Notes under the pieces: model-generated
The model's database searches: none
Told to the model about the DNA's origin: nothing
What the model saw: only the letters and a program-made list of their open reading frames with translations
In this document: positions 30,848 to 63,793 of the stretch, piece after piece
Position numbering within the stretch: position 1 is the stretch's first letter
How the letters are laid out: each line of letters opens with the position of its first letter
Made by a program: the position numbers and the translations under genes
From: Anaerolineaceae bacterium
GTDB taxonomy: Bacteria > Chloroflexota > Anaerolineae > Anaerolineales > Anaerolineaceae
Direction of reading: 5' to 3'
Assembly (NCBI GenBank): GCA_016841525.1
Contig: JAENYZ010000006.1
Location: forward strand, 62,001-126,000
DNA length: 64,000 nt

Positions 30848-30850
30848 CTA

Positions 30851-33994: not shown

Positions 33995-34027
33995 AAAAAA
34001 AAGGCGATCCGAGCGGATCGCCTTTTT
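33995..34027. terminator. Bidirectional intrinsic terminator
   Basis: Perfect eight-base stem GGCGATCC / GGATCGCC (34003-34010 and 34015-34022), loop GAGC, flanked by A8 and T5. It closes the DUF1461 gene on plus and the ABC ATPase gene on minus. Confidence 0.92.
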
Positions 34028-55274: not shown

Positions 55275-55499
55275 ATGAATTTATTAGGTGCACCTAAAGG
55301 TAAGGCAGTGCGTGTTGTTGATTATACCGGGGGGAAGGGCGTGAGCTTTAAATTGCGGCAATTGGGCCTGTGTCCCGGCCGAGAGGTCAAAGTTCTACGG
55401 TATGCACCGATGGGTGGGCCGATCATGGTTGATATTGACGGCCGATCTGTGGCCTTGGGCAGGGGGATTGCATCTCGGGTTAAAGTCGAGAAAATTTGA
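55275..55499 (+). CDS. feoA: Ferrous iron transport protein FeoA
   Basis: 74 residues, an SH3-like fold. LRQLGLCPGREVKVL and GPIMVDIDGRSVALGRGIASRV are diagnostic. FeoA modulates FeoB. The stop codon TGA shares its A with the feoB ATG (TGATG), so the two are coupled. No ribosome site stronger than AGAGG at 55266-55270. Confidence 0.94.
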   Translation: MNLLGAPKGKAVRVVDYTGGKGVSFKLRQLGLCPGREVKVLRYAPMGGPIMVDIDGRSVALGRGIASRVKVEKI

Positions 55500-57412
55500 T
55501 GCGATTTGGATTAATTGGTCAGCCCAACTGCGGGAAAAGTACATTATTTAACCAAATTGCTGGTTACAAAGCAGAAACTGGCAATTTTAGCGGCACCACA
55601 GTGACATTTACAGAAAGCAAGGTCCGATTGCTGGGGCAGGTTGTTGATGTTGTGGATTTGCCTGGCACCTACACATTAGCAGGTACAAACCCTGCAGAGC
55701 GTGAAGTTATAAAATATTTAACATCAAACGAAGTTGACGTTGTTGTTAATGTTCTGGATGCCTCACGTTTGTCCCATGGTTTGGCAATGACTGTTGAATT
55801 ATTAGAGCTTGAAATCCCTCTTGTGATTGCATTAAATATGATGGATGAAGCCGACAGGATGGGCATTCTTGTTGATGTCAGGGCACTGGAAGAATTTTTG
55901 GGTGCGCCTGTTGTTCCAATGATCGCTTCCAAGGGTCGCGGCATTCAACCGTTGTTCACCAAAGCTTTTCAGGTTGGCAAAGATGACAAAATTCCCGTTC
56001 AACCCAGATACAGTGAGGATATTGAAACTTATTTAACTATTCTCGAAACCAATCTCAAAAATGTTAAGAGCTATTTGAAGCCGAGGGCTTTAGCCATCAA
56101 ATTAATTGAAGGCGATGAAGCTATCCTGAAGGATGTACTCGATCAGAAGCCGGAAATCCAGGATGACCTGAGATCTATTCGAGAAGGTTTGCGGCATACG
56201 CGAGGTCAATCCTCTGATTGGGTGATCAGTGGAGAACGAAGTTCCCTGGCAGAACAGATTGCGAACAGAATCATCAAACAAGGTAAGCGGCATGTCACTT
56301 TTCGTGACAAATTGGACGATATTCTTCTCCATCCGCTTTTGGGTTATGTATTTTTAGTTCTTATTTTATATTTGTTCTTCCAAGCAGTCTACAGCCTGGG
56401 GGGCTTAATTGAGACGCCATTGATGGCATTGTTTGAGCAATTGGAAACCTGGGCGGTCAGTTTATTAGGTGAAAATCAAAACATCATAACTGAATTAGTG
56501 ATTGGCATGATCCAGGGTGTTGCAGGCGGTGTGGCAATTGTCCTGCCGTACCTGGTGCCTTTTTTGATAGGTTTGGGCGTTTTGGAAGATGTAGGATATC
56601 TGCCTCGCGTTGCCTTCTTAATGGACTCCTTGATGCACAAAATTGGGCTTCATGGCAAATCCATTGTTCCCTTCATTCTTGGTTTTGGCTGTAATGTGCC
56701 GGCGATTATGTCCACACGGATTTTGGAGGATAAGCGGGAGCGTTTTATTTCAGCAGCATTGTCCACGTTGGTACCCTGTGCTGCCCGATTATCCGTCGTC
56801 TTCGGACTGGTTGCTTTTTATCTGGGGCCTGCTCTTGCCCTTGGAATTTATCTATTCAATCTTTTTGTCATTGCCCTCACCGCGAAAATTCTTTCTAAAC
56901 TTGTTCCGGACAATTCACCTGGTTTGATATTAGAGATGCCGGTGTACCGGGTTCCGACACTTCGAACGGTGTTAAACAAAGCCTGGTGGCGCATTCGGGA
57001 GTTTATCGTAGAAGCATGGCCGTTATTGATTGTTGGCAGCATCGTCCTGGCGATTTTGAACCATCTTAATATCGCCTTTTATTTGAATACCCTGGTCAGA
57101 CCGCTCTCCTGGCTTTTAGGTTTGCCACAGGAAGTTGGCGTTCCATTGATATTTGGCGTATTGCGTAAGGAATTATCCCTGGTCATGCTGGGGCAGGCTT
57201 TAGGAAGTATGTCATTTTCTGATGTGCTGACGCCAGTCCAAATGGTGACCTATGCCGTATTTGTGGTTTTTTACATTCCATGTTTGGCCACTATGGTTGT
57301 GATACGAAAAGAATTAGGGACCAAAGCGATGTGGTATATCGCAGCGATGACAATTGTTATTGCTACAATGGCAGCGTTATTCGCCCGTGGAATTACAGAA
57401 ATATTTTTTTAG
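55499..57412 (+). CDS. feoB: Ferrous iron transporter FeoB
   Basis: 637 residues. The N-terminal G domain has GQPNCGKST (G1), the switch region GNFSGTTV, DLPGTYTL (G3) and LNMMDEAD (G4). The C-terminal half has about eight membrane helices with the two Gate motifs, including LPYLVPFLIGLGVLEDVGYLPR and GFGCNVPAIMSTR; a conserved Cys lies in each of GFGCNVPA, VPCAARL and IPCLATM. Imports Fe2+ under anoxic conditions. In-frame TTG at 55496 is rejected in favour of ATG 55499. A methyltransferase gene follows within 10 bases. Confidence 0.97.
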   Translation: MRFGLIGQPNCGKSTLFNQIAGYKAETGNFSGTTVTFTESKVRLLGQVVDVVDLPGTYTLAGTNPAEREVIKYLTSNEVDVVVNVLDASRLSHGLAMTVELLELEIPLVIALNMMDEADRMGILVDVRALEEFLGAPVVPMIASKGRGIQPLFTKAFQVGKDDKIPVQPRYSEDIETYLTILETNLKNVKSYLKPRALAIKLIEGDEAILKDVLDQKPEIQDDLRSIREGLRHTRGQSSDWVISGERSSLAEQIANRIIKQGKRHVTFRDKLDDILLHPLLGYVFLVLILYLFFQAVYSLGGLIETPLMALFEQLETWAVSLLGENQNIITELVIGMIQGVAGGVAIVLPYLVPFLIGLGVLEDVGYLPRVAFLMDSLMHKIGLHGKSIVPFILGFGCNVPAIMSTRILEDKRERFISAALSTLVPCAARLSVVFGLVAFYLGPALALGIYLFNLFVIALTAKILSKLVPDNSPGLILEMPVYRVPTLRTVLNKAWWRIREFIVEAWPLLIVGSIVLAILNHLNIAFYLNTLVRPLSWLLGLPQEVGVPLIFGVLRKELSLVMLGQALGSMSFSDVLTPVQMVTYAVFVVFYIPCLATMVVIRKELGTKAMWYIAAMTIVIATMAALFARGITEIFF

Positions 57413-57421
57413 CAGGTGATG

Positions 57422-57994
57422 ATGGCAAAATTTGACCATTTTAATTTGATCAGCCCACTATACGATTTTGTTTTTGGCAGGCGAGTTGATAATGAAATTG
57501 TTGACTTAGCTGATACTGCTGAAGATCAGGTAGTGCTTGATGTCGGTGGCGGCACTGGCAGGGTCAGTTTGCTTTTCAAAGAGAAGGTTAAGAATGTCAT
57601 AATCGCAGATTCCTCTGTTAATATGCTCAAAGAAGCCCAGGAAAAAGGTCTGTCCATCGTCAATTCCAACTCCGAGTGCTTGCCTTTCCCCGATGAATCA
57701 ATTCATCGAGTTATAATGGTAGATGCTTTTCATCATGTAAAAAACCAGCATGATACAATTGAAGAAATGTGGCGGGTTCTTAAAACGGATGGTTTCATCA
57801 TCATTGAAGAACCGGATATCAATAATTTCTATGTTAAATTAATAGCGGTAGGAGAAAAATTATTATTGATGCGCAGCCATTTTGTATCTCCATCTCGCAT
57901 TGCAGAAATGGGGGATTTTGATGGTAGGGCTGCTGTCGATATTACTCGCAGTAAGGGTAATGCCTGGATCAGGATAAAAAAGGAGAAAGTTTAA
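57422..57994 (+). CDS. Class I SAM-dependent methyltransferase in the feo operon
   Basis: 190 residues. Motif I is VVLDVGGGTGRVSLLF, followed by IIADSSVNMLKEA, FPDESIHRVIMVDAFHHV and EEMWRVLKTDGFIIIEEP: a UbiE-like methyltransferase without an extra domain. Starts at 57416 (GTG), 57419 and 57422 (ATG) are all in frame; 57422 has the best spacing to AGG at 57414-57416. It directly abuts the SCP2 gene (stop 57992-57994, next ATG 57995). Substrate unknown; a lipid or quinone is conceivable. Confidence 0.85.
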   Translation: MAKFDHFNLISPLYDFVFGRRVDNEIVDLADTAEDQVVLDVGGGTGRVSLLFKEKVKNVIIADSSVNMLKEAQEKGLSIVNSNSECLPFPDESIHRVIMVDAFHHVKNQHDTIEEMWRVLKTDGFIIIEEPDINNFYVKLIAVGEKLLLMRSHFVSPSRIAEMGDFDGRAAVDITRSKGNAWIRIKKEKV

Positions 57995-58327
57995 ATGGAA
58001 GAATTGAATGTCAGTCAAATTATGAAGCGAATTCCGGAATATTTTAATCCTGAGGAGGCAAAAGGGATTGAAGCGGTCGTGCAATGTTTCTTTTCAGGGG
58101 AACAGGCATCCAACTGGTTTGTCGTCATTAAAGACCAAACTTGTGAAGTTGAAGAGGGTCAGACTGATCATCCTGACATCACCATCAAAGCAAAAGGGGA
58201 AGAGGGAGTTAAGTTGTTCACAGGTGAAATGGATCCGATGCGTGCGTTTTTACTACGAAAAGTTAAGGTAAGCGGCGATATGGCATTGGGGATGAAATTA
58301 TTAAATTTATTTGATCGTCCATATTAA
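57995..58327 (+). CDS. SCP2 sterol/lipid-binding domain protein
   Basis: 110 residues, one SCP2 domain: VQCFFSGEQASNWFVVIKD, PDITIKAKGEEGVKLFTGEMDPMRAF (two blocks) and KVKVSGDMALGMKL are standard family features. SCP2 domains bind lipids or fatty acids in a hydrophobic tunnel. It is immediately downstream of the methyltransferase without a gap, so the two may work on the same hydrophobic substrate. No signal peptide; cytoplasmic. Confidence 0.88.
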   Translation: MEELNVSQIMKRIPEYFNPEEAKGIEAVVQCFFSGEQASNWFVVIKDQTCEVEEGQTDHPDITIKAKGEEGVKLFTGEMDPMRAFLLRKVKVSGDMALGMKLLNLFDRPY

Positions 58328-58368: not shown

Positions 58369-58716
58369 CTAATACAGCCCCCAATCATCTGCGAGCCCTT
58401 CTTCCATCATTGTAGGGTCCCAGGTTTCACGCCCATAGTTAATTTTTGTTGGCATTTCAAGAATCGTTTCCGCCTTCTTTCTGGTGCTTTCCATTATGGA
58501 AGGCCCATAAGGGCAGAATGGTGTTGTCAGGATCATAGTAATAACTGCGTGGTCAGATTTAACTTCAATATTTCTAACCAATCCAAGCTCCAAAATATTC
58601 AAGCCTAACTCAGGGTCAATTATCTCGCTCAAGCCATCTTCCAGGGCAGGAACATAATCAGGATGTGAGTTTTCGATGTCCCAGATTGGCATATTATCAA
58701 TGCTGTTGTCGTTCAT
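58369..58716 (-). CDS. DUF59 (MIP18/SufT-like) iron-sulfur assembly protein
   Basis: 115 residues. ALEDGLSEIIDPELGLNILELGLV is the DUF59 signature (in two adjoining blocks), and TTPFCPYGPSIMES carries the conserved reactive Cys. DUF59 proteins, including SufT and eukaryotic CIA2, help mature Fe-S proteins. An ATG at 58716 with GGAGAG four bases before it is chosen; the longer frame to 58773 overlaps the regulator gene. It lies 16 bases after the SufR-like regulator in one transcript and across from sufCBD. Confidence 0.88.
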   Translation of the reverse strand: MNDNSIDNMPIWDIENSHPDYVPALEDGLSEIIDPELGLNILELGLVRNIEVKSDHAVITMILTTPFCPYGPSIMESTRKKAETILEMPTKINYGRETWDPTMMEEGLADDWGLY

Positions 58717-58732
58717 GTTTCTCTCCATTTTT

Positions 58733-59341
58733 TTATTCTGAAATCTGATATGTACAGCGCTCATCGCCATCAAGGATACATGTCACTTTTTTGACGGGGG
58801 TTGAAAGAAATTCTGAAATCAGATGCATATCTAAATTGCAAATCTCAGGATAATCTTTACCCACCTGGAAATAGGGACAGGATAAGGATGAAATTTCGTA
58901 GGAGTCATTGCCCTTCTCATACTCAATAATGAAACCTTCACGAGTCAGGACTTGTTTAAGGGTTTCGATTCTTGCATCTAAAGTTTTTCCATCGAGGTCT
59001 TCTTTATGCGCTTGCGCCATCACAATTCCAATTTCACTAAACAGAGATTCCACTTCCTCTTCCGACATTTTGTCTTTTAAAGTACCAATTAGGCGTTTGG
59101 TCAGACGAAGGTAACTGGTAGGAAATTTCTCAACGCCTTCATCAGTTAATGAATAAATCAATCTTGGCCGACCTACCCCATGCCGCTCCTCAGAAGATAC
59201 AACTAGATCATCTGCTTCCAGAGAGGTGAGATGGTGCCTGATGGATATCCCATTGATACCAACTGCATCTGCGAGATCGTTTATCGTCGAACCGGGATAG
59301 GATAGCAATGTGTGCAATATTTTTTCGCGTGTGCTTTTCAT
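58733..59341 (-). CDS. SufR-like iron-sulfur transcriptional regulator
   Basis: 202 residues. The N-terminal winged helix (TINDLADAVGINGISIRHHLTSLEADD in parts, then GVGRPRLIYSLTDEG as the wing) is DeoR/ArsR-like. The C-terminal part has Cys155, Cys168, Cys188 and Cys196 (SCPYF, EICNL, VTCILDG, RCTYQI), the arrangement of SufR-type sensors that carry a Fe-S cluster. Proximity to a DUF59 gene and the suf operon supports control of Fe-S biogenesis. Its promoter overlaps a perfect palindrome at 59422-59447. Confidence 0.88.
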   Translation of the reverse strand: MKSTREKILHTLLSYPGSTINDLADAVGINGISIRHHLTSLEADDLVVSSEERHGVGRPRLIYSLTDEGVEKFPTSYLRLTKRLIGTLKDKMSEEEVESLFSEIGIVMAQAHKEDLDGKTLDARIETLKQVLTREGFIIEYEKGNDSYEISSLSCPYFQVGKDYPEICNLDMHLISEFLSTPVKKVTCILDGDERCTYQISE

Positions 59342-59392: not shown

Positions 59393-59422
59393 ATTTTAGC
59401 ACGCAAGGGATAATGTTGTCAA
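59393..59422 (-). promoter_or_regulatory. Promoter of the SufR-like gene
   Basis: On the minus strand TTGACA (59422-59417), 18-base spacer, TAAAAT (59398-59393), about 52 bases before the ATG. Confidence 0.75.
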
Positions 59423-59447
59423 TATTTAAGATATTTATCTTAAATAT
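59422..59447. promoter_or_regulatory. Perfect 26-bp palindrome, likely regulator operator
   Basis: Arms ATATTTAAGAT and ATCTTAAATAT (11 bases each, no mismatch) around ATTT. One arm touches the -35 box of the SufR-like gene. On the minus strand the arm plus -35 reads TTAAATATTGACA, and the identical 13 bases occur at the sufC promoter (61473-61485). Confidence 0.7.
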
Positions 59448-59470
59448 CCTGAACAGTTTTGTTTCTTAAC

Positions 59471-59508
59471 AAAAAAGATGCCCATTGTGAAATGAGCATC
59501 TTTTGTGT
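59471..59508. terminator. Intrinsic terminator after the DhaL-like gene
   Basis: Hairpin AAAAGATGC ... GCATCTTTT (59473-59481 and 59496-59504) with an inner CATT/AATG stem and a GTGA loop, flanked by A and T tracts. It serves minus-strand gene 59523-60236; the T run on plus would also stop opposing transcription. Confidence 0.85.
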
Positions 59509-59522
59509 TTAATAAGATGGGT

Positions 59523-60236
59523 TTATTTGTTCAGGCTGCCCACAAAATTCATAATCGTAGAAGCGACAATAGAGCCAGATTGTGCACGATGGCTTGATTT
59601 GCCCATTGGGCTTGCTGCCATCAAGGCGCTCATTATTGCCTCCATGTTGCTGTCACCCGATTGTTTGGATTGGAAATAAGCCATCCCAGCCTGCATTAAG
59701 TCATCCAGCCCCAGGGATTGATCTGAATCAGCTTGTTCGCTGGTTTGTCCTGTTAAACCTGATAATAAGGACCCAAGAATATTGTCGGTTTGTGACGATT
59801 GGTTTGATGGTGTAGGCTTGCTGGATTGCCCAGCAAAACCAGATAATAATGAACCTAAAATATTGTCACTTTGGGCTTGTGGTTTTGGTTCAGGCTGTTC
59901 TACACCTAGAAGACTTTGCAGCAAAACACTCATTGATTTTTCATTCAGATCTTGCCCTGACAGGTTTCTGGCAGCATTTTCAAGGCCATGAGCGTAAAGC
60001 TTAGCTGATCCACTGTTTGTTTTTTCTTTTACAACCTGACTTGCATAGGCAAGCTGGTCTTCCACGGGTTTCCCAGATCGTTTTGCAACAGCATTTTGTG
60101 CCAGGTTGAAAATTTGGACCATGTTATCGCCGTGGTTATGGTTGTAGGAATCAGCTTCGTTTAATGTTTCTTTGTTTTGGGCAAGCTGCTTGGTGATGCT
60201 TCCAAACAATGTCGCGAGGTCTATCGAGCTTGCCAT
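59523..60236 (-). CDS. Protein of unknown function with DhaL-like N-terminus and an internal repeat
   Basis: 237 residues, no signal or membrane segment. Residues ~1-110 weakly resemble the DhaL/DAK2 fold: NHNHGDNM sits where DhaL has DGDHGxNM, and SGSAKLYAHGLENAA resembles the later glycine loop, but both metal-binding Asp are Asn. Residues 122-138 and 149-165 are an imperfect repeat, (S/T)DNILGSLLSG with a following GQ(S/T)S, in a Gln/Ser/Pro-rich linker; a Met/Ala-rich tail follows. It starts one base after the stop of the LysM gene, so both are expressed together. Function unknown. Confidence 0.75.
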   Translation of the reverse strand: MASSIDLATLFGSITKQLAQNKETLNEADSYNHNHGDNMVQIFNLAQNAVAKRSGKPVEDQLAYASQVVKEKTNSGSAKLYAHGLENAARNLSGQDLNEKSMSVLLQSLLGVEQPEPKPQAQSDNILGSLLSGFAGQSSKPTPSNQSSQTDNILGSLLSGLTGQTSEQADSDQSLGLDDLMQAGMAYFQSKQSGDSNMEAIMSALMAASPMGKSSHRAQSGSIVASTIMNFVGSLNK

Positions 60237-60237
60237 C

Positions 60238-60735
60238 TTAGTCTTTTAAATCCTCTGGTAATTCAGGGATTTCAAGTTCCATGCCTTCACGGACATTTCT
60301 TTCATTTCCCTGAAGTGCTTCTTTGTTTTGTTCAAGGATCAATTGCCAGTAGGGTGGGGTAGCATGCTTGTAATATTTCAGAGCCAGGTGGCTTAAGGTT
60401 TCACCAGCGGCAACTTTGTGGGTTGTCATGACCTTTGTTTCCTTTGCTTGTTCCAGTCCAGCCATTCGCTCTTCTTTAATTTTTCTTCGGGCATCAATCA
60501 TTTTTTCGCGTTCTGCTTCTCTAAGTTTTGCTTCAAGTTCTTTGATGCGTTTTTCTGCTGCGTCAGCTTCGGCAGAGACTTTGGATTTATCTCTGTTCTG
60601 ATCTAAAAGTGATTTTATCGCTTTCTTAGAAGCTTCTAATTCTTCTTCTAATTTTGCAATTTCCTCTTTTTCGTCTTTGCTGGAAAATGCATCGGTTACC
60701 TTACCGAAAATACCTTTTTTCTCTTTATCAGCCAT
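60238..60735 (-). CDS. Coiled-coil protein with C-terminal LysM domain
   Basis: 165 residues. Charged coiled coil from about 15 to 95, then a LysM domain (about 107-158: HKVAAGETLSHLALKYYKH, YWQLILEQNKEAL, REGMELEIPEL). LysM usually binds peptidoglycan or chitin, but there is no signal peptide, so this belongs to the cytoplasmic LysM class (like YgaU/Kbp) found with unknown partners. AGGAG precedes the ATG. The downstream gene begins one base after its stop, indicating a functional pair. Confidence 0.85.
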   Translation of the reverse strand: MADKEKKGIFGKVTDAFSSKDEKEEIAKLEEELEASKKAIKSLLDQNRDKSKVSAEADAAEKRIKELEAKLREAEREKMIDARRKIKEERMAGLEQAKETKVMTTHKVAAGETLSHLALKYYKHATPPYWQLILEQNKEALQGNERNVREGMELEIPELPEDLKD

Positions 60736-60988
60736 TTTAACTCCTTTGTTTTTTTATTTGACTAAATTAATTTTACCTCATTGAATTTCATAATATATAT
60801 ATAATTTGTTAGAATTGTCTTTTTGGTGTTTTTTATATCGTTTCTAATAGCAGGAAACGACCGGTTTTGCAAAATGTTCTTACATTAATTGGCTTCGTAC
60901 AAAGAGGTTGTTTCCCGATGATATTTACCTAAGGAAATAAAAATTTTAGTCGTTACAGGGATTGTTTGAACGTGCATTGAGGATTTTT
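60736..60988. other. AT-rich intergenic region
   Basis: Between divergent genes. It includes an alternating TATATATATA run near 60795. I see no open frame, RNA gene or clear hairpin. Confidence 0.6.
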
Positions 60989-61017
60989 TTGCAATATTTA
61001 TAGTTTTATTATAAAAT
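60989..61017 (+). promoter_or_regulatory. Promoter of the small membrane protein gene
   Basis: TTGCAA (60989-60994), 17-base spacer, TAAAAT (61012-61017), about 35 bases before the ATG. Confidence 0.65.
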
Positions 61018-61052
61018 ATATATCCAAGGTAAATTATTCTTCAGGAGGAATG

Positions 61053-61223
61053 ATGAAACTAAATGCTCCAAAAAACATTACATGGATTATCGCGTTGGTA
61101 TTAGGACTTTTGGCAATATTATCAAGATTTACTTCATTGCCAATTATTACAGATAATAATTTTTGGGTCCTGGCAATTGGTTGGGCATTATTAATTCTTG
61201 CCACTTATCTGAAGGATCTATAA
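61053..61223 (+). CDS. Small two-helix membrane protein, 56 residues
   Basis: The frame encodes MKLNAPKNITW, a hydrophobic helix (IIALVLGLLAILSRF), a short polar turn (TSLPIITDNNFW), and a second helix (VLAIGWALLILATYL) ending KDL. A perfect AGGAGG (61043-61048) and a near-consensus promoter precede it, so translation is very likely. Tandem ATGs lie at 61050 and 61053; the second is better spaced. No recognised family. It is a stand-alone transcript between the LysM gene and sufC. Confidence 0.8.
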   Translation: MKLNAPKNITWIIALVLGLLAILSRFTSLPIITDNNFWVLAIGWALLILATYLKDL

Positions 61224-61479
61224 CCTATCATTAGAGTCTTTTTATCGCTTTATCGATAGGATCTTCAAAGATTCTGTTTAAGTAGGGCTTAAATTATTTA
61301 TTAGCACGCTTTGGGTTGATATATCAAGGTGTGCTAATTTAAGTTAAATTTAGTCGTCAATTTACAATTTTTTTTAATAGGTGGTTTAATCGCAAAAAAA
61401 TTAGTTGGTGGGAGTCGAAAACCTAATTGTTTTTATAGGTGTGTAATATCAATAATTTATTATATTTTTATGTTAAATA
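61224..61479. other. Intergenic region upstream of the suf promoter
   Basis: AT-rich, without an open frame or RNA gene that I can support. The only signals recognised are at its right end, where the sufC promoter and the shared half-site begin. Confidence 0.55.
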
Positions 61480-61508
61480 TTGACACTTAAAATTACGCAT
61501 GCTATAAT
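61480..61508 (+). promoter_or_regulatory. Consensus promoter of the sufCBD operon with shared half-site
   Basis: TTGACA (61480-61485), exactly 17 bases, TATAAT (61503-61508): a full consensus. The -35 box is embedded in TTAAATATTGACA (61473-61485), the same 13 bases as at the SufR-like promoter. The 5' UTR is about 65 bases. Confidence 0.9.
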
Positions 61509-61581: not shown

Positions 61582-62358
61582 ATGTCAGCCTTAGAAATTA
61601 AAAATTTGCATGTTTCCATTGACGAGACGCCTATCATTAAGGGGCTAAACCTTAAGGTGAACAAGGGTGAGGTGCACGCAATCATGGGGCCGAATGGGAC
61701 AGGCAAGTCAACCCTTGCATACGCAGTAATGGGACATCCAAAATATGAGATCACCGATGGGGATATCCTTGTCGATGGTGCGAGTGTTCTTGAATTGGCA
61801 CCTGATGAACGTTCACGAGCAGGTGTTTTCCTCGCATTTCAATACCCGGTATCCATTCCCGGTGTGACGGTGGCAAATTTTCTTCGAACGGCACTTAATG
61901 CACGACACCGCCATATGGAGCCACCTCAAGGAGATATTTCAGTTTTAGAATTTAGAAAACTGCTCAAATCCAAGATGGACTTGCTTGAGATGGATTATGC
62001 TTTTGGCGGCCGTTATTTGAATGAGGGTTTTTCAGGTGGGGAGAAAAAACGAACGGAAGTATTACAATTAGCTGTTTTGGAGCCCGCTTTTGCCATTCTT
62101 GACGAAACGGATTCAGGTCTCGATATTGACGCCATCAGGATTGTTTCTGAAGGTGTTAATGCCGTCAAGGGTCCAAACATGGGGGTGATGGTCATCACCC
62201 ATTATCAACGAATTTTGAATTATATCAAACCCGATTTTGTTCATATCATGTTTGACGGGCGAATTGTCGAATCTGGTGACCAGGAACTCTCACTTCTTTT
62301 AGAGGATGAAGGTTATGATTGGGTTCGTGAAAAGTATGGACTGGCAGAAGCATCATAA
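61582..62358 (+). CDS. sufC: Fe-S assembly ATPase SufC
   Basis: 258 residues. ABC-type ATPase of the SufBCD scaffold. Walker [10 protein letters not shown] (36-44), signature [10 protein letters not shown], Walker [13 protein letters not shown] and the H-loop VITHYQ are intact; [13 protein letters not shown] is SufC-specific. GAGGAG precedes the ATG. First gene of sufC-sufB-sufD; the order C-B-D without leading sufA/sufE is common in Gram-positive-like systems. Confidence 0.98.
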
Positions 62359-62380: not shown

Positions 62381-63793
62381 ATGGGTAAGAACCCGGAGAC
62401 TGAGTTTTTAGATGAATTAGGAGAATACCAGTTTGGGTTTAGTGATCCAGAATCATTTGTTTTTAAAAGCAGAAAAGGACTGGACGAAGAGGTTGTAAGG
62501 CAAATTTCTGCTTTGAAGGGCGAACCAAAATGGATGCTGGAATTTCGCCTGAAAGCATTGAAACATTATCAAAACAGACCCATTCCAACCTGGGGTGCTG
62601 ATTTGAGTGATCTGGATTTTGATGATATCTATTATTATCTTAAGCCAACTGAGGGCGAGGGAACATCCTGGGATGATGTCCCCGACACGATAAAAAATAC
62701 GTTTGAAAAGCTTGGTATTCCAGAAGCAGAGCAGAAATATCTTGCTGGTGTTGGTGCACAATACGAATCTGAAATGATTTACCACAGCGTCCAGAAGGAA
62801 TTGGAAGAAATTGGTGTGATCTTTCTCTCAATTGAGGAGGGATTGAGACAACACCCAGATTTATTCCGAGAATATTTTTCAACAGTCATCCCGATTCAGG
62901 ACAATAAATTTGCTGCCCTGAACAGCGCAGTATGGTCTGGCGGTTCTTTTGTTTACATTCCACCAGGTGTGAAAGTTGACCTTCCCCTGCAGGCTTATTT
63001 CAGGTTGAATGCGGCCAATATTGGGCAATTCGAACGCTCATTAATCATTGCTGATGAAGGCGCACAGGTACATTATGTTGAGGGTTGTACTGCACCAACG
63101 TATTCAACAAACTCATTCCACAGCGGCGTGATTGAGATCGTTGTGAAAAAGAACGCCCGCGTCCGCTATTCAACGATCCAAAACTGGTCGAGTAATGTTT
63201 ATAACCTGGTGACGCAGCGTGCTAAGGTATATGAAAACGGTACGATGGAATGGGTCGATGCAAATCTGGGTTCTAAGGTTACTATGAAATATCCTTCATG
63301 TTATTTGATGGAACCGGGGGCACATGGTGAAATTCTATCTGTTGCCTTTGCCGGGCCAAATCAACACCAGGATGCAGGCGGCAAAGCGATTCATTTTGCA
63401 CCAAATACAAGCAGCAAAATTACATCTAAATCGATCAGCCGCGGGAATGGGCGATCCTCTTACCGTGGATTGCTGAAAATTCATGCCAATGCAGAGGGCT
63501 CAAAATCAAACGTGGTTTGTGATGCCCTCTTACTTGACCCCGAATCACGGTCTGATACTTATCCCTACATTGAAGTCGATGCTCATGATGTGAGCCTTGG
63601 TCACGAAGCGACTGTTTCAAAAGTAGGTGATGAGCAGTTGTTTTATTTGATGAGCCGAGGGCTCAGTGAAGAAGAGGCAACAACGATGGTTGTGTCCGGG
63701 TTTATTGAACCGCTGGTTAAAGAACTGCCGATGGAATACGCTGTCGAAATGAACCGCTTAATTCAATTGCAAATGATTGGCTCTGTAGGATAA
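62381..63793 (+). CDS. sufB: Fe-S assembly scaffold SufB
   Basis: 470 residues. The beta-helix core contains [39 protein letters not shown] with the conserved Cys, [16 protein letters not shown] and [14 protein letters not shown]; the C-terminus has [20 protein letters not shown] (in sequence) with the family His and Glu residues. With SufC and SufD it builds Fe-S clusters. 22 bases after sufC. Confidence 0.98.

Follow-up and report, generated by a model that had tools for sequence, protein, structure and literature searches.

A 64,000-nucleotide window of an Anaerolineaceae genome (positions 62,001-126,000 of contig JAENYZ010000006.1; assembly of 3,204,169 bases, 97.3% complete) encodes a SufR-like regulator (sufR) and, on the opposite strand, the suf genes sufC and sufB, and a perfect palindrome touches the -35 box of the sufR promoter. 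The question raised by this locus is whether the palindrome belongs to an operator of sufR and the suf operon and, if so, which protein recognises it. The dyad of which it forms part is, with a probability of about 0.88 in our estimate, the operator of the neighbouring Chloroflexota SufR-family regulator, which would repress both promoters. This assignment, made from sequence comparison, draws on the conservation and symmetry of the site, its register with the promoters, its co-occurrence with sufR, the weakness of the sites in genomes without sufR, and the three-cysteine SufR-like protein encoded beside it.

The common form of the site was found in relatives of the organism. The family sample (f1) comprised 101 genomes, 88 of which had a SufR-like match; 86 were used, G019 and G057 being left out as having weak matches only. 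A usable sufC match was present in 84 of these, and both genes lay on one contig in 79. The two genes are divergent in all 79 pairs, 50 of which are separated by less than 300 bp, five by 300-500 bp and 24 by at least 1 kb. The close pairs share a single conserved 34-bp dyad, GTCAATATWWWWGATWWTTATNNTAAATATTGAC (symmetrised, GTCAATATTTATGATAATTATCATAAATATTGAC), and in 40 of the 50 the best site begins with GTCAA and finishes with TTGAC. When four pairs at 300-500 bp are included, 41 of 54 sites are double-ended in this manner, all 41 flanked on either side, at a distance of 16-18 bp, by a -10-like hexamer; across all 54 sites such a hexamer is found on the sufC side in 51 (20% in shuffled sequences) and on the sufR side also in 51 (shuffled, 35%). 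Judged by these sequences, the ends of the dyad in double-ended pairs are the -35 boxes of two opposed, back-to-back promoters. Since both promoters of a close pair scan the same intergenic DNA, sharing was judged by the double-ended count. A matrix was built from 50 sufR/sufC pairs less than 300 bp apart, all from genera other than that of the window, and a site was called at 8 bits; in the shuffle control, any of 20 shuffles reached this threshold at only 5 of 177 promoters. By this measure the pairs less than 500 bp apart contain one site in 48 of 55 cases and two in the remaining 7.

In the window's genus about 2 kb separate sufR from sufC, and there is a copy of the dyad at each promoter. 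The palindrome at sufR, ATATTTAAGAT-ATTT-ATCTTAAATAT, has perfect 11-base arms and spans 26 bp, and it shares one base with the -35 box, the first of TTGACA; the initial annotation had described it as touching this box. Its proposal that the palindrome is the operator needs enlarging: the palindrome is real and forms only the inner part of a 34-bp dyad, which in most close pairs includes both -35 boxes. A search for perfect palindromes with arms of 11 bases or more and spacers of up to 10 finds three distinct places in the window (seven with nested ones); the two besides this one, near 30850 and near 34000, resemble terminator hairpins. By the same criterion, ten dinucleotide shuffles of the window gave 0, 0, 1, 2, 0, 0, 0, 0, 0 and 0. 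A 13-base string at the sufR promoter, TTAAATATTGACA, had been said to recur at sufC in identical register, and an exact search of the 3.2-Mb assembly bore this out, with two occurrences, one per strand, located exactly at the sufR and sufC promoters; the reversed-pattern control in the same assembly gave 0 and 0. The distance from operator to -35 box is the same at both promoters, and the -10 spacing is unlike (18 versus 17 bp).

The sufR copy scores 26.6 bits with the close-pair matrix; its arm is kept and its GTC is lost. The next place elsewhere in the window reaches 0.0 bits, and the maximum over 20 shuffled windows is 7.2 bits. A sequence-only profile, R1, was derived from 70 sites of 47 f1 genomes, without any site from outside f1; like the matrices, it favours AT-rich, f1-like sites. 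It assigns 34 bits (E 1.4e-7 in the own genome) to the sufR copy and 19.7 bits (E 0.0046) to the sufC copy, both sites being part of the training set. No other place in the genome passes E 0.01, the next standing at E 0.49, and on this ground a wider regulon in the window's own genome was rejected. At sufC, only a half-site had been recognised, with 7 of 11 positions of the left half matching. The count is the same by eye and undervalues the site, which scores 17.6 bits with a matrix drawn from other genera. When the site is anchored by its near half only, the far half is above chance (p 0.034), and the same holds in congeners with sufR, and on this ground the half-site reading was rejected.

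Where the genes moved apart, each promoter usually retains a whole copy, and such promoters allow the operator to be told apart from the -35 box. At 47 split promoters the close-pair matrix was used to place the site by its near half only, after which the far half was read. Columns 4-17 of the far half average 6.7 bits, as against -10.5 to -17.4 bits when slid by 1-3 bases, and the far half has a shuffle p below 0.05 in 39 of the 47. On the far side, the outermost G, T and C survive in 14, 18 and 2 promoters, respectively, and the next A, A and T in 40, 45 and 44. The part kept is about 28 bp long and corresponds to columns 4-31 of the symmetrised consensus, AATATTTATGATAATTATCATAAATATT. Because the far arm outlasts its GTC, which decays, an operator of about 28 bp seems to be under selection of its own, separate from the -35 box, and the site at sufC is therefore a degenerate full dyad rather than a half-site. 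A rule that the sufR site is the stronger of the two was considered and dropped, as it holds in only 13 of 19 split pairs (p 0.17).

The presence of the site follows sufR. Of the 35 sufR genomes outside the matrix training, 31 reach 8 bits at sufR or sufC; when the training pairs are counted too, the figure is 81 of 85. Eight genomes have a usable sufC and no sufR match, namely six of genus g17, G061 and G073. The six g17 sufC promoters score -26.4 to -8.9 bits, and a sufR match is found in none of the seven g17 genomes. The sufC promoter of G073 scores 8.2 bits; it lies on a 3-kb contig, and the sisters of this genome have sufR about 1.5 kb away. G061, a 98% complete member of the window's genus, scores 6.1 bits at sufC. 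Its contig retains the SufT-like gene, as well as genes similar to the two that intervene between the sufR and sufC promoters of the window, which by eye hold the same place, and tblastn of the contig found no SufR between the SufT-like gene and the next gene (L256:602-929). The former sufR promoter of G061 is a relic in which only the near half is kept (4.0 bits, with -24.7 bits for the far half), and the far half of its sufC site, at -13.7 bits (-4.5 bits without GTC), is the weakest among eight congeners. With R1, 73 of the 101 family genomes were matched: 72 of the 86 with sufR versus one of the 15 without it.

The site also occurs beyond the family. In a second family, f2, which contributed nothing to R1 training, 58 of 61 genomes have an R1 match, counted by model match. 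In a class sample of 298 genomes 32 are matched, 28 of them outside f1, and in all 28 the match lies upstream of sufR, sufC, sufB or a SufR-family gene: by coordinates it is just upstream of sufR in 15 of 15 f2/f3 genomes, and in the other 13 it precedes sufC, sufR, sufB (G216) or a 29%-identical SufR-family gene (G244). Matches were found in 31 of 192 class genomes with a SufR homologue (E<=1e-15) versus 1 of 106 without one (Fisher p 8e-6). None of the 32 matched genomes in a 400-genome phylum sample lies outside the class, R1 being biased to f1 and the non-class share of that sample uncounted. Conservation upstream of orthologues, to which the initial annotation had looked, was thus seen in most sampled family genomes, in nearly all of f2 and in scattered families of the class.

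The regulator has several features of a SufR-type protein. An N-terminal winged helix-turn-helix (PF13412) is above its cut-off, and Cys155, Cys168 and Cys196 are conserved without exception across an alignment of 28 proteins, two of them Calothrix SufR; identity to Calothrix SufR is 30%. The predicted ligands of Rv1460, Cys203, Cys216 and Cys244, have the same x12/x27 spacing (PMC6034842). The AlphaFold2 model is confident, with a mean predicted local distance difference test value (pLDDT) of 88.6 and a predicted template-modelling score (pTM) of 0.63. Against the PDB it aligns partially with MarR-type winged-helix proteins and, in other alignments, with the sensor domains of MopR and PoxR and with BcsD, the TM-scores normalised by query length being low, about 0.3-0.5; by sequence, no solved homologue was found with anything better than E 0.087.

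In the mechanism that we infer from this arrangement, the operator of each promoter, sufR as well as sufC, adjoins the -35 box on its upstream side and runs into it, and SufR bound there would keep sigma-70 off the -35 box, so that the suf operon and sufR itself would be repressed. A protein on the site would cover the -35 box of both promoters, which fits repression. SufR would presumably act as a dimer or a pair of dimers, with Fe-S clusters on the three cysteines; loss of the cluster, or damage to it, would relieve the repression and raise suf expression. A single dyad would serve both back-to-back promoters of most close pairs. The window's lineage, like several others, has two complete copies, which may stem from duplication of one; here they lie about 2 kb from each other and enclose two genes. 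As a speculation, a dyad of this length could be bound by more than one dimer or through extended wing contacts.

Another iron or redox regulator, either Fur/PerR or a member of the Rrf2 family (IscR/RisR-type; RisR is an Rrf2-family protein), might own the site instead, and several observations could be read in this way. The AT-rich dyad core, TGATAATTATCA, is Fur-like, in what we take to be a resemblance to the Fur box, and the site occurs at a gene for Fe(III) transport in four of eight genomes of genus g4 and at a superoxide dismutase gene in three f2 genomes. Both regulators are also almost ubiquitous in the family sample (Fur in 100 of 101 genomes, Rrf2 in 98), and two of the three genomes in which Rrf2 was not matched, G083 and G097, likewise gave no R1 match. 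However, Fur and Rrf2 occur with or without the site. All seven g17 genomes (G017, G049, G065, G076, G084, G092 and G098) encode both and have neither sufR nor an R1 match, and G061 has both, no sufR, and weak sites. Conversely, G018 has the site and no Fur match, and R1 matches G093 (71% complete), the third genome in which Rrf2 was not matched. The restriction of the E 0.01 matches in the window's own genome to the two suf sites also speaks against such an owner. Since Fur and Rrf2 are so nearly universal, all g17 genomes and G061 included, the distribution of the site is not explained by them; its presence tracks neither gene, and ownership by either is not favoured and seems improbable. 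It is very improbable that the locus merely has strong sigma-70 promoters with an AT-rich UP element, the palindrome being a by-product of composition and of back-to-back promoters. The AT-richness, the location directly upstream of the -35 box and the very good hexamers are what such promoters would show, but the far arm is kept in register at one-way promoters, six g17 sufC promoters have no site, the sites of G061 are weak, and shuffled promoters rarely reach the threshold.

The assignment to SufR has to be set against a number of observations that weigh against it. Ten of the 50 close pairs are not double-ended, eight (g9/g10) having no sufR-facing end and two (G036 and G052) a changed sufC end, and the sufR site of G025 and G055 is best with a one-base slip. 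Four of the 85 sufR genomes (G005, G025, G047 and G083) have no site of at least 8 bits; in genus g15 no site was found at sufR in the seven genomes tested, and those at sufC are mostly weak. G023 (64% complete) is the R1 match without a sufR match, and G216 has its site at sufB without a SufR match at E<=1e-15. The family R1 table is partly circular, because the profile was trained on 47 of these genomes, the evidence of G061 is that of one metagenome-assembled genome, and genomes within genera are not independent, many being incomplete. A SufR homologue is found in 192 of the 298 class genomes and an R1 match in only 32; therefore, most distant homologues use something that R1 does not see. 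Finally, TIGR02702 (SufR_cyano) is the best NCBIfam match of the regulator, over its full length, and its score of 91.6 bits is below the equivalog cut-off of 178.8.

Candidate further targets of the regulator come from relatives. In the four g4 genomes a gap of 66-68 bp separates the site from a downstream gene that, in our own reading, encodes the binding protein of an Fe(III) ABC transporter; a permease gene comes next in both genomes looked at. In f2 genomes G264, G407 and G416 (L236, L293 and L294) it lies 17-26 bp before a gene reading as Fe/Mn superoxide dismutase. Twenty further R1 loci comprise 13 at sufR or sufC, two at the dismutase, two at the transporter and three at other genes. 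A single R1 match precedes an FtsH-like protease gene (own reading) in G407 (L295), others in G431 and G437 precede genes without a reference match, and G018 has one without a named neighbour; these extra matches are possibly due to chance. As a tentative and rather doubtful extension, the Chloroflexota may have a SufR branch with its own long AT-rich operator for more than one dimer, ancestrally joined to both -35 boxes, a single binding event then shutting two opposed promoters, duplicated as the genes moved apart, and recruited in some lineages to Fe(III) uptake and superoxide dismutase. If so, SufR would be a wider regulator of iron and oxidative stress in anaerobes.

The features of the locus are listed below.

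Table. Coordinates of the suf locus in the window and of the candidate operator at the Fe(III) transporter gene in relatives.
Feature	Position	Strand	Remarks
SufT-like DUF59/MIP18 protein	58369..58773	-	directly downstream of sufR; PF01883 1.6e-11
SufR-like regulator, 202 amino acids	58733..59341	-	winged helix, Cys155/Cys168/Cys196 (C-x12-C-x27-C); TIGR02702 SufR_cyano 91.6 bits
sufR promoter, predicted -10, TAAAAT	59393..59398	-	18-bp spacer, TG before -10, 11/12 hexamer matches
sufR promoter, predicted -35, TTGACA	59417..59422	-	
Candidate operator copy at sufR, 34 bp, CAGGATATTTAAGATAAATATCTTAAATATTGAC (read from sufR)	59418..59451	-	includes perfect palindrome 59422-59447
First intervening gene between sufR and sufC promoters	59523..60236	-	without Pfam family
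Second intervening gene between sufR and sufC promoters	60238..60735	-	without Pfam match
Candidate operator copy at sufC, AATAATTTATTATATTTTTATGTTAAATATTGAC	61451..61484	+	degenerate full dyad; 17.6 bits with close-pair matrix
sufC promoter, predicted -35, TTGACA	61480..61485	+	
sufC promoter, predicted -10, TATAAT	61503..61508	+	17-bp spacer, TG before -10, 12/12 hexamer matches
sufC	61582..62358	+	TIGR01978 above cut-off
sufB	62381..63793	+	TIGR01980 above cut-off
Candidate operator at Fe(III) ABC-transporter gene	L169:2547-2578, L170:1717-1748, L309, L310		four g4 genomes

The SufT-like gene is probably on the same transcript as sufR. Its open reading frame as given is a mechanical one from a TTG start that overlaps sufR, and the start is provisional. 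The end of the second intervening gene presumably resembles LysM, by eye. A small open reading frame of about 57 amino acids, hydrophobic by eye, is located at 61050-61223 between the intervening genes and sufC. At 55275-57412, within a few kb of sufR, FeoA (Pfam) and a FeoB-like GTPase/permease (our own reading of the sequence) are encoded; there is no operator copy near them, as only the two suf sites score above 0.0 bits in the window. Beside the suf region, at 57416-58327, are a UbiE-type methyltransferase and an SCP2/UbiT-like protein (NF047962, under the cut-off). UbiT is part of anaerobic ubiquinone synthesis, and a UbiT-like gene seems odd for the Anaerolineaceae lineage of the window.

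A search of the open-licence literature found no papers on SufR in Chloroflexi, Chloroflexota or Anaerolineae. A regulator and its matching operator can now be predicted in two families of Anaerolineae, in which a natural case of sufR absence and the split promoters that separate the operator from the -35 box are available for comparison, and the Fe(III) transporter and superoxide dismutase genes are candidate further targets.

Among known systems, cyanobacterial SufR is close to the arrangement proposed here; according to a review, its holo-protein represses suf and its own gene (PMC8593673). As in the window, sll0088 of Synechocystis encodes a SufR-family regulator with conserved cysteines, divergent from suf (there sufBCDS), and the region has two sites, one upstream of each gene (PMC6034842, PMC13421787, PMC8593673). 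The suf site is the high-affinity one in Synechocystis (PMC6034842), whereas the sufR site scores higher in the window's genome. The actinobacterial SufR proteins of Streptomyces avermitilis, Mycobacterium tuberculosis (Rv1460) and Corynebacterium glutamicum are suf repressors, as proposed here (PMC6034842), but sufR of M. tuberculosis is the first gene of the suf operon (PMC6034842) rather than divergent from it. RisR of Myxococcus xanthus is comparable in kind, being an Fe-S-dependent winged-helix repressor of suf and isc that acts on a palindrome over the promoters with a footprint of about 30 bp (PMC9973013); its motif, TKGAC-N7-GTCCW (PMC9973013), is unlike the dyad described here.

In sequence the Chloroflexota operator differs from the cyanobacterial one, which is CAAC-N6-GTTG (PMC13421787, PMC8593673) as opposed to an AT-rich dyad of 28-34 bp, a difference that the initial annotation had rightly pointed out. 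The CAAC-N6-GTTG operator of S. avermitilis overlaps the -10 box (PMC11995493), while the site here abuts the -35 box. Two CAAC-N6-GTTG sites were seen upstream of sufR on inspection of the Calothrix sequence; the operator therefore differs between the branches, and the protein family is shared. CAAC-N6-GTTG, in whose place the conserved site here is an AT-rich dyad, is taken as a trait of the SufR members studied so far and not as one that defines the family.

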